64,000 nt of DNA from an uncultured Anaerolineae bacterium (GTDB lineage: Bacteria; Chloroflexota; Anaerolineae; J036; Brachytrichaceae). The translations under genes and the position numbers were made by a program. The notes beneath the pieces were generated by a model that searched no databases, had not been told where the DNA came from, and saw only the letters and a program-made list of their open reading frames with translations. This document shows positions 58,510 to 64,000 of this stretch, piece after piece; the first letter of the stretch is position 1; the number at the start of each line of letters is the position of its first letter. The DNA lies in NCBI GenBank assembly GCA_938034415.1, contig CALHLE010000046.1, positions 1-64,000 of the forward strand. Direction: 5' to 3'.

Positions 58510-59634
58510 TCAAAACGGCCGGAGTGTGAAGATGGAGAGGAGCACGATGAACGCGCCGATGAAGGCAACGTTGCGCCGCAGGTCCAGCGGCGTGATGTCG
58601 TTCAGCGGCTGAGCGTGGTTGAGGCCGCTGAACAGCGCGAAGGCCATCCAGATCAACCACGTCGGCGATACGGTCAGGCCGAGCACGGCCATAATCGCCA
58701 CTGTTGCCAGGCCAACCCGGCGCGCCCATTGGCGTCCCAACGCAGCGTAAGCAATGTGGCCGCCATCAAGCTGACCGACCGGCAACAGGTTCAGCGCAGT
58801 GACTACCAGGCCAAAGCGGGCCGCAAGCAGCACCGGATTCATGATGATGCCATAGTCCATAGCTTCCGGCCGGAATAGCGCGATCAACAGGGTAATCAGA
58901 TAGGAGCGCGTCGGCGGCGGGGGATCGTTAGTCAGCGTCGCTGCAGTCAGGCCGGCCACGAACAGCGGCACGGCAACCAGCAAGCCTGCGATCGGCCCGC
59001 CGATGCCAACGTCGAACAGCGCCCGCCGGTTCTCCACCGCGCCGCGCATTTGGATGAATGCGCCAAATGTGCCGAGAGTGCCCGGCAGCGGCACCGGAAT
59101 GAAATAGGGCAGTGTGACCGGTACGCCATGCCGCCGGGCTTGCACGTAGTGCCCGAACTCGTGCACGGCCAGGATGGCCAGCAAGGTGAGCGAGAATGGG
59201 ACGCCACTCGCCAGAATTGAGGGCAACGACAGGTCGCCGCCCTGCGTGAGCGCCGCCGCGAACATGCCGCCGAAGAGCGTGGTAGTGAGCACCGTCGCCA
59301 GAAACAGCAGCAAATTCACCCACGGCCGCTGGGTCAGCAGCGCCTGCAGGCTCCCTCTGATCGCCATCACCTCCTGGCGCTCATGCGAGTCGCTTTCGCG
59401 CAGCAACGGCACGTAACCGAGATCAGCGAAGCGCGCCTTGAGCCGGTCGAACGCTTCCTGTGCGCCAATGCGCAAGCAGCCCTTAAAGGCAACGGCCTGG
59501 CCGGCGGCCAGCTCCTGCAACTCTTCGATGGCCATGACCTCGGCCACACGCGCGCGCAGCAGCATCAGCGCTTCGTTGCCGTCGGGTAGGCGATCGGGCG
59601 CCGCGCCGGCAGCGTAGATGTCGGGATCGTTCAT
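58510..59634 (-). CDS. M50-family site-2-type membrane metalloprotease
   Basis: LAVHEFGHYVQARRHG (HExxH); LLPVGQLDGGHIAYA. Confidence 0.92.
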   Translation of the reverse strand: MNDPDIYAAGAAPDRLPDGNEALMLLRARVAEVMAIEELQELAAGQAVAFKGCLRIGAQEAFDRLKARFADLGYVPLLRESDSHERQEVMAIRGSLQALLTQRPWVNLLLFLATVLTTTLFGGMFAAALTQGGDLSLPSILASGVPFSLTLLAILAVHEFGHYVQARRHGVPVTLPYFIPVPLPGTLGTFGAFIQMRGAVENRRALFDVGIGGPIAGLLVAVPLFVAGLTAATLTNDPPPPTRSYLITLLIALFRPEAMDYGIIMNPVLLAARFGLVVTALNLLPVGQLDGGHIAYAALGRQWARRVGLATVAIMAVLGLTVSPTWLIWMAFALFSGLNHAQPLNDITPLDLRRNVAFIGAFIVLLSIFTLRPF

Positions 59635-59702
59635 CGAAGGGCAACTTTAGCCCAGGGAGATGAGAAAGGGGTAAACAACGCCTTTGCCTGCTCGAGCGCG
59701 CT

Positions 59703-60671
59703 TCACGCTGCGCACGCGGCCAGTCCGGCGCGCAGCGCATCCTCCTGCTGCTTAAGGTTACGCCCGATGAACTGGATGAAGCGTTGGCCACTGGCGGCCC
59801 CAGCAGGCAGCCGCTCCAACCCAAACCGGCGCGGCACAAAGTTGAACAGCGATGGGCTACTGTCGCCGGCCACTTGCACGAAGCCTTTGGCGCGGTATAC
59901 ATCGCGCACCGCCTCGCTGCGCAGGAAGGCCGCTAGCTTGTCCTCGTCAAGCAACTCAGGAGCGGACAGCGTCACGCTTTCAATCTCGTCATGGCGCAGG
60001 TGGTCATGGTCGTGTTCGTGTTCATGTTCATGCGCGTGGTCATCAGTTGGCGCGGCGAGGTCGCGCGCAGCATGTGCGGCGTGCGCGCCGAATAGCACAT
60101 GCAGCGGCGCATCAGCGTAGCGGGTCGGGATGATGGCGCATTTGCGATTGAAGCGACGCACCTGCGCCTCGACCTGAGCCAGTTGTTCGGGCGTCACCAG
60201 ATCGCGCTTGTTGAGCAACACGAAGTCGGCCATGTACACCTGTGTCTCCACCGCCGCCGAGTAACGCATGTATTCGAGGAAGCGCTCGGCGTCTATCACG
60301 GTGATGACCGAATCCAGCCGCAGACGCGGATGATGCAAGCCGTGCAGCACAGCCTGGGGGTTGGTCACCCCGCTGCTCTCAACCACGACCATATCGGGCT
60401 GATGCGCCTCAATGATTTGGCGCAGGGTCGCCTCGAATTCGCCGCGGATGGTGCAGCAGATGCAGCCGGACGAGAGGCGCGCTACGATGCCGGCTTCACC
60501 CACTTCTTGCGCGAGCAGTTGACCGTCTACATCAACGTCGGCCAGGTCGTTGACGATGAAGGCGATGCGCCGGCCGGCGGCGAAGTCGCTGCGAATCAGA
60601 TTTCTCAGCAGCGTGGTTTTGCCCGCGCCGAGGAAGCCGGTCACCACAACATAGGCAATGCGATACGCCAT
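59703..60671 (-). CDS. G3E GTPase, COG0523/CobW-like (paralogue C) with His-rich tract
   Basis: [60 protein letters not shown]. Confidence 0.93.
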   Translation of the reverse strand: MAYRIAYVVVTGFLGAGKTTLLRNLIRSDFAAGRRIAFIVNDLADVDVDGQLLAQEVGEAGIVARLSSGCICCTIRGEFEATLRQIIEAHQPDMVVVESSGVTNPQAVLHGLHHPRLRLDSVITVIDAERFLEYMRYSAAVETQVYMADFVLLNKRDLVTPEQLAQVEAQVRRFNRKCAIIPTRYADAPLHVLFGAHAAHAARDLAAPTDDHAHEHEHEHDHDHLRHDEIESVTLSAPELLDEDKLAAFLRSEAVRDVYRAKGFVQVAGDSSPSLFNFVPRRFGLERLPAGAASGQRFIQFIGRNLKQQEDALRAGLAACAA

Positions 60672-60674
60672 TCC

Positions 60675-62644: not shown

Positions 62645-62710
62645 CGTGTTTCTCTCCTGTAACAGTGAGAAGAGCGACGTCGCGCGCGCCATGCAGCACA
62701 ACGAGGCTCA

Positions 62711-63928
62711 TCACCAGCTTGGGAATGGGTCGGCGAGGAGCCGCCACGCCTGAGGGCCGGCGGCCATCTCCTCATCGGTGAGCAGGCAGGAATCCATCAC
62801 CGCCTGTACCAACTCGCGCTTGAGATCAGCGCCGATGAAGACGATCTCCTGGCGGCGGTCGCCGAAGGGTTCTTGCCAGTGCGATTCGACTTCGGCGCGC
62901 GCATAGTCCGGCCACTGCTCGCGCGGCGTCGCCGCATACCACCGGCCGGCATACTCAATGCGCAGCAGCGCGCCGGCTTGTGACCACAAGCCGGCCTCAT
63001 CCATGCGCGAGGCCAACCAGAAGAAGCCCTTCGAGCGGAGCACATTCGTGCTGCCCCAGTCGGCGTTCACCACTTCCCACAGTCGCTGCGGGTGGAAGGG
63101 CCGCCGCGCGCGATAGACCAGGCTGCTCACCCCATACTCTTCCGTCTCGGGCACATGCTCACCGCGCAGCTCCTTCAACCAGCCCGGCGCCTGGGCAGCC
63201 TTCTCAAAGCTGAATAGGCCGGTGTTCAGCACGGCGTCCAACGTCACGCGGCCATGCGTGGCGCGCACGATGCGCGCATCGGGATTCAGCCGACGCAGGA
63301 TGCCCTCCAGCCTGATCAGCTCCGACTCGTTGACGAGGTCTATTTTGTTAATGACGATGACGTTGGCAAACTCAACCTGTTCCACCAACAAATCGGTGAT
63401 GGTGCGTTCATCTTCCTCGCCGGCAGCCAAGCCCCGCGCGCGCAGGTCCTCCGCCTCGGTGAAGTCGCGCAGGAAGTTGTATGCATCCACCACCGTCACC
63501 ATCGTGTCCAGCCGGGCCACGTCGGAGAGCGAGAAGCTGCGCCCCTGGCCGTCCTCTAGCTCGAAGGTGAAGGTTTCGGCGACCGGCAGCGGCTCGGAGA
63601 TGCCGGTGGACTCGATCAGCAAGTAGTCAAAGCGGCCCTCGCGCGCCAGTCGTGCCACCTCCACCAGCAAGTCCTCGCGCAGGGTGCAGCAGATGCAGCC
63701 GTTGGTCATCTCCACCAGCTTCTCTTCTACCCGGCGGAGCTGCGCGCCGTCGCGCACAAGCTGGGCGTCAATGTTGACCTCGCTCATGTCGTTGACAATG
63801 ACCGCGACGCGCCGCCCCTCGCGATTGTTCAGCACGTGATTCAGCAGCGTGGTTTTGCCGGCGCCCAGAAAGCCGGAGAGCACCGTCACCGGCAAAGGTG
63901 ATTGAGAGGTTGGAGTGGCATCTATCAT
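62711..63928 (-). CDS. G3E GTPase, COG0523/YciC-like (paralogue A)
   Basis: [47 protein letters not shown]-terminal CobW_C-like RPFHPQRLW. Confidence 0.95.
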
Positions 63929-63931
63929 TTG

Positions 63932-64000
63932 TTACACCCCAGCGAAGAGCTTGTTGATCAACAGGCCGATAGCCATCGTGTATGCCGCATACCAGGCCAC
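63932..64000 (-). CDS. C-terminal end of a truncated membrane protein gene (only VAWYAAYTMAIGLLINKLFAGV visible)
   Basis: Open frame to TAA, 3 nt upstream of paralogue A start; hydrophobic helix. Confidence 0.5.
   Translation of the reverse strand: MAWYAAYTMAIGLLINKLFAGV

Follow-up and report, generated by a model that had tools for sequence, protein, structure and literature searches.

A putative Zur-controlled zinc-starvation operon with three COG0523 GTPases and a DsrE-like protein in an uncultured Anaerolineae bacterium

Clusters in which COG0523 GTPases are linked to the zinc regulator Zur have already been published, including more than one COG0523 subfamily (two) in a single Zur regulon, and DUF1826 was drawn in such Zur-regulated clusters (Haas et al. 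2009, PMC2770081). The locus analysed here shares with these clusters a Zur-type regulator, an operator, the znuABC genes and Zur-linked COG0523 GTPases. It differs from them in that three separate COG0523 clades are present in one operon, and in the addition of a DsrE-like protein, a CPCC zinc ribbon and, in relatives, a Cys-tailed flavoprotein; the text of PMC2770081 mentions neither DsrE nor zinc ribbon nor Chloroflexi. A Fur-family gene at znuA loci of SAR11 has also been reported, in passages that do not mention the DsrE-like protein (PMC4771312). In zinc-depleted Paracoccus denitrificans, the COG0523 gene pden1338 was reported to be induced 13-fold (PMC5387054). Our search of the open-access literature retrieved no paper in which the words DsrE, Zur and zinc occur together. 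The operon as such is of a known kind; its novelty lies in the accessory proteins that recur with it, chiefly the DsrE-like one.

The window, i.e. the whole stretch of DNA that was analysed, comprises positions 1 to 64,000 of contig C46 in a genome of 2.83 Mb assembled in 83 contigs. A preliminary description, made from the letters of the window, had listed six consecutive minus-strand genes for GTPase A, a DsrE-like protein, an FmdB-type zinc ribbon, GTPase B, GTPase C and an M50 protease. A check of coordinates and profile matches recovered all six genes in their places and with their motifs (Table 1), including the GCPCC tail of the zinc ribbon (PxGCPCC) and the ATGA coupling, in which the ATG of GTPase B at 61793 overlaps the stop codon of the zinc ribbon. 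Two genes were added to that list: a decayed flavoprotein gene between the DsrE-like gene and the zinc ribbon, and an S41 protease gene that follows the M50 gene on the same strand. For the DsrE-like gene, a longer frame that reaches 62701 begins with TTG, while the ATG start is at 62644. The gene at the window edge, described as a truncated membrane-protein gene, does encode a membrane protein, but it is not truncated: it continues past the window as a complete 384-aa permease of the ArsP_1 family. A search of the region against Rfam for an RNA regulator returned no matches.

Table 1. Minus-strand features of the locus (positions in the window unless marked C46)
Feature	Coordinates	Strand	Remarks
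S41 protease	57045-58310	-	downstream of M50; PF03572 111.7 bits
M50 family membrane metalloprotease	58510-59634	-	PF02163 72.5 bits
GTPase C	59703-60671	-	322 aa; COG0523; PF02492 157.9 bits
GTPase B	60675-61793	-	372 aa; COG0523; PF02492 186 bits
FmdB-type zinc ribbon	61790-62047	-	85 aa; PF09723, TIGR02605
Flavoprotein remnant	62168-62270	-	decayed 5' part of Pyr_redox_3 gene
DsrE-like gene	62267-62644	-	125 aa from ATG; NF040913
GTPase A	62711-63928	-	405 aa; PF02492 + PF07683; NF038288
ArsP_1 (YraQ-like) permease	63932-64000 (3' end in window); full C46:63932-65086	-	PF03773

Contig C46 runs on for 85 kb, and the front part of the operon lies past position 64,000. When this sequence was obtained, as the preliminary description had proposed, the genes upstream of GTPase A proved to be those of the ArsP_1-family permease, ZnuB, ZnuC and ZnuA, followed by a divergent Fur-family gene and, in the gap before znuA, a palindrome. 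The ZnuABC-type ABC transporter is complete, in the order A-C-B, with PF01297 (310 bits for ZnuA), PF00005 and PF00950 (251 bits for ZnuB) all well above their cut-offs. ZnuA carries a His-rich loop (HGHEHDAD...HSHDK...HAHEH), and its best match is the zinc-binding AztC, yet below the cut-off and with Mn carriers scoring close. The claim that the genes do not fit a standard named operon was therefore an artefact of the window edge, beyond which znuABC, the regulator and the operator lie. The proposal of a dedicated metal acquisition or insertion system stood, with Zn very probably the metal, whereas nothing was found in support of Co, Ni, Hg or As. Because of ZnuABC, the sole Fur-family regulator, the conserved palindrome and the ZigA score of GTPase A, we read the locus as a Zur/Znu-type zinc-starvation operon. 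As judged from sequence, and leaving aside the step assigned to the DsrE-like protein, we regard Zur-controlled zinc starvation as very probably the setting in which the operon works. In the simplest reading it consists of nine genes, or ten with M50, and only its 3' part is inside the window.

The regulator (PF01475, 80.5 bits), divergent from znuA, was the sole FUR-family gene found in a profile search of the genome. Its sequence is equally close to Fur, PerR, Nur and Zur, and its presumed zinc specificity rests on gene company. The zur-znuA gap contains the 7-1-7 palindrome TGAGAATnATTCTCA (C46:67898-67912), present in one exact copy in the 2.83 Mb; the gap sequence TGAGAATGATTCTCA is the sole exact match in the genome. 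This palindrome, which is also similar to a Fur box, was found before znuA in all seven relatives in which the znuA promoter was read: exact in L033, L034 and L215, with one mismatch in L036, L038 and L216, and exact again in L221, from another genus, where no regulator was detected beside znuA. A wider regulon was sought by a genome-wide operator search and rejected: the next best site, with 2 mismatches, is on contig C63 next to a gene for a methyltransferase rather than to an iron gene, and seems to be a chance match. Sites with 3 mismatches numbered 24, and the total was 26 versus 11 for a reversed control pattern.

All three GTPases contain the P-loop, CxCC and NKxD motifs, so that the CxCC metal motif ascribed to them earlier was found in each, and the His/Asp-rich tracts were likewise confined, as described, to B (EHDHAHDHDHDHDHHHDH) and C (DDHAHEHEHEHDHDH), with no such tract in A. 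GTPases B and C also possess both the cobW and the CobW_C domain. By its score of 653.9 bits against the NCBI ZigA model NF038288 (equivalog cut-off 600), GTPase A is a predicted ZigA-type zinc metallochaperone of COG0523; B and C, with 176 and 125 bits, remain below that cut-off, and none of the three reaches that of CobW (TIGR02475, 332 bits; A 147, B 206, C 172 bits). The genome has six PF02492 matches, of which the three strong COG0523-type ones are GTPases A, B and C, the others being one HypB in a hyp cluster and two weak matches. A chance cluster was rejected because all three strong COG0523-type genes of the genome are at this locus. In a tree of 90 sequences, A fell among the ZigA proteins, and two other clades contained B and C; tandem duplication of one GTPase was rejected, since the three belong to three old clades. 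Zur/Znu/ZigA genes also accompany GTPase B in loci from other families of the class (L221, L227, L228, L230 and L232), in some of which it follows a zinc ribbon of the same kind. GTPase C was found in this genus and family only.

Comparison with relatives showed that the gene order is conserved yet modular, the recurring order in the genus being Zur / ZnuA-ZnuC-ZnuB-(Perm)-(ZigA)-(DsrE)-(flavoprotein)-ZnRib-B-C. Within the genus, the order of G003 (L033) is identical except that the flavoprotein gene between DsrE and the zinc ribbon is intact, that of G008 (L215) matches the window but lacks DsrE, and G005 (L034), G007 (L036) and G001 (L216) have shorter forms of the operon. G006 (L035) has DsrE-flavoprotein-ribbon-B-C with no znu genes adjacent. 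Lack of conservation, which the preliminary description had named as evidence against its reading, was encountered solely for the place of M50 and S41, kept in two close relatives only. In L038 (G013:C7:1-12000), from another genus, the stretch from ZnuA to DsrE is 88-98% identical to that of the window, the adjacent regulator is merely 56% identical, and ZigA is internally shortened and joined to DsrE, a pattern that reflects either a recent operon transfer or a chimeric contig end.

The zinc ribbon matched PF09723 with 43.5 bits (cut-off 34.4) and TIGR02605 with 45.5 bits (cut-off 31.3); its GPGCPCC tail recurs in the zinc ribbons of Roseiflexus. The flavoprotein remnant was recognized by a profile match (E 8.8e-6) and by blastn to L033, which gave 87% identity over the stretch of DsrE end and flavoprotein start, together with a second piece of 31 bp, and revealed internal deletions. 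The gene is intact in G003, G005 and G006. The flavoprotein of relatives scores 331 bits with Pyr_redox_3. It shares this domain with the YpdA disulfide reductases, and YpdA is its nearest NCBIfam model; it differs from them in its score (85 bits, cut-off 340) and in a conserved Cys-rich tail, and the window retains only the remnant. M50 and S41 stand behind GTPase C solely in the window, L033 and L215 (M50 is absent from this place in L034, L035, L036 and L216), and we therefore treated them as neighbours; both are probably bystanders and not core.

The DsrE-like protein scored 208.7 bits with NCBIfam DsrE_rel_ELSE (NF040913; cut-off 152), and 19.6 bits with Pfam DsrE, short of the gathering score of 22.7. 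It contains the motifs CDxCA and GCFPxLY. Across 70 diverse sequences, 62-90% identical to the window protein apart from one outlier at 48%, CDxC, GCFP and 18 other positions are invariant, and identity from Chloroflexota to SAR11 is about 70%. The structure model (pLDDT 96.7) had YchN, TusD and DsrE as its best Foldseek matches, with probability 1.0, so that the DsrE/TusD/YchN fold is confidently predicted; a sequence search for a solved ELSE structure found none. In a weak alignment (E 0.31), the Cys that opens CDxC is paired with Cys78 of the DsrE chain 2hy5_A, the sulfur-carrying residue. In contrast to the DsrE/TusD/YchN carriers, the protein has a second invariant Cys in CDxC and the invariant GCFP, falls below the Pfam DsrE cut-off, and has zinc-gene neighbours. 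Matches were obtained in 48 of 400 sampled Chloroflexota genomes, and 400 stretches of GTDB contigs encode relatives, from groups such as Alphaproteobacteria including SAR11, Planctomycetes, Acidobacteria, Gemmatimonadota, Verrucomicrobia and cyanobacteria. The protein is also encoded in organisms grown in the laboratory, such as Thermomicrobium roseum, as TRD_RS10080, and Thermus thermophilus, on pTT27, as TTH_RS10335.

Among the 80 best DsrE_rel_ELSE loci (not a random sample), 34, from many phyla, had a match to ZigA, ZnuA, ZnuB or Zur no farther than 5 kb away, where the ZnuA/B matches could include Mn carriers; the chance expectation was estimated at 1-2%, from 10 kb of a 2-4 Mb genome and few genes. 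More than half of the 80 loci had no zinc-import or ZigA gene within this distance, many of the contigs being short. In the family of L067, L068 and L070, the znuA palindrome (TGATACTnnGTATCA) occurs again, with 0-2 mismatches, before a separately promoted DsrE gene, whereas in shuffled loci, with up to 3 mismatches allowed, the mean was below one site per 15-16 kb. This putative second operator is a zinc link independent of adjacency. In Thermomicrobium roseum the order is repressor, substrate-binding protein, ATPase, permease and SaoD/DsrE. In four loci of Chloroflexota (L077, L079, L083 and L090), ELSE and ZigA have close to them a paralogue of ribosomal protein L28 that lacks the usual zinc-ligand cysteines, and DUF1826 is another recurring neighbour of ELSE; both fit a zinc role. 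In the Pelagibacteraceae loci L145, L150, L155 and L178, the DsrE-like gene adjoins a znuA that is encoded on the other strand; ZnuC, ZnuB and a Fur-family gene follow farther out, lost at the contig end in L155.

The following working model can be proposed. When zinc is sufficient, the Fur-family regulator, acting as Zur, would bind TGAGAATnATTCTCA and shut the operon; when zinc falls, ZnuABC would be made and zinc imported. ZigA and its two His/Asp-rich paralogues would catch zinc on CxCC and His-rich sites and, as family knowledge suggests, pass it on to selected client proteins in a step driven by GTP. Co-produced with GTPase B, the zinc ribbon is probably the zinc donor, acceptor or adaptor of that GTPase. 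The DsrE-like protein, in relatives together with the YpdA-like Cys-tailed flavoprotein, probably keeps or delivers reactive thiols or persulfides, by which emptied zinc-cysteine sites might be made refillable; this last step is the weakest. The locus touches the open questions of how COG0523 proteins choose their clients and of what else cells make when zinc runs out, and the DsrE-like protein, which repeatedly shares both location and regulation with Zur/Znu/ZigA genes, offers itself as a candidate partner.

ArsP_1 permeases are usually exporters, and the one found here (PF03773, 84 bits; cut-off 32.3) is odd in an import operon, a point against the zinc-import reading. Its presence recalls the NCBIfam Sao set, in which a permease (SaoE), a DsrE protein (SaoD) and a CobW-related selenoprotein are likewise adjacent, and the locus could handle thiophilic metals such as Hg, As or organometals. 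Yet the scores miss every cut-off (121 of 169 bits for SaoD, 52 of 325 for SaoE, 50-71 of 180 for the CobW-related selenoprotein), no mer or ars genes are nearby, and a zinc importer and Zur-type control are present, so that this is highly improbable; the permease also scores below the cut-off of the SO_0444 Cu/Zn efflux permease (46 bits, cut-off 300). If the regulator were a broad one or one for iron/manganese, the operon could supply Mn or Fe and its GTPases could be general metal chaperones; such a reading would agree with the single FUR-family gene, the likeness of the operator to a Fur box and the resemblance of the substrate-binding protein to Mn carriers. We consider it improbable in view of the ZigA score of GTPase A, the His-rich loop of ZnuA, the single exact operator with no iron gene at the next best site, and the cysteine-poor L28 paralogue beside homologous genes.

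A separate matter, compatible with the zinc-starvation reading of the operon, is whether the DsrE-like protein takes part in ordinary sulfur relay, e.g. in tRNA thiolation, and shares the operon without a zinc role. Its fold and the weak alignment with Cys78 agree with this, as do the many loci without nearby zinc genes. In the haloarchaea L212 and L213 (Natrononativus and Halorubrum plasmids), moreover, the neighbours of the gene are those for TusA, rhodanese and YeeE; this setting points to sulfur chemistry and speaks most strongly against an exclusive zinc role of the protein. The recurrent Zur/Znu/ZigA linkage across many phyla and the znuA-like operator of its own in another Chloroflexota family argue against it, and we hold a purely sulfur-relay role to be possible, if somewhat unlikely. 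As a bolder proposal, rather unlikely as it stands, DsrE_rel_ELSE may be a widespread and so far unrecognised zinc-starvation protein of bacteria that forms, with the Cys-tailed YpdA-like flavoprotein and the CPCC zinc ribbon, a thiol/persulfide module readying empty zinc-cysteine sites for COG0523 loading. If true, such a module would join sulfur-carrier chemistry to zinc delivery.

Several other neighbours of the DsrE-like gene were observed. On pTT27 of Thermus thermophilus HB8 (L210, 5766-8402), it adjoins, and is divergent from, an Argonaute gene, with no zinc genes nearby. In L077, L079, L083, L090, L129 and L149, ZigA/DsrE is accompanied on the same strand by a second flavoprotein (NAD_binding_9, about 390 aa). 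In marine bacteria, one protein family recurs near the gene (L138 at about 4824-6011, and also L160, L163, L164 and L167); its member in L138 is His-rich with a weak Porin_4 match, and the family is possibly a zinc porin.
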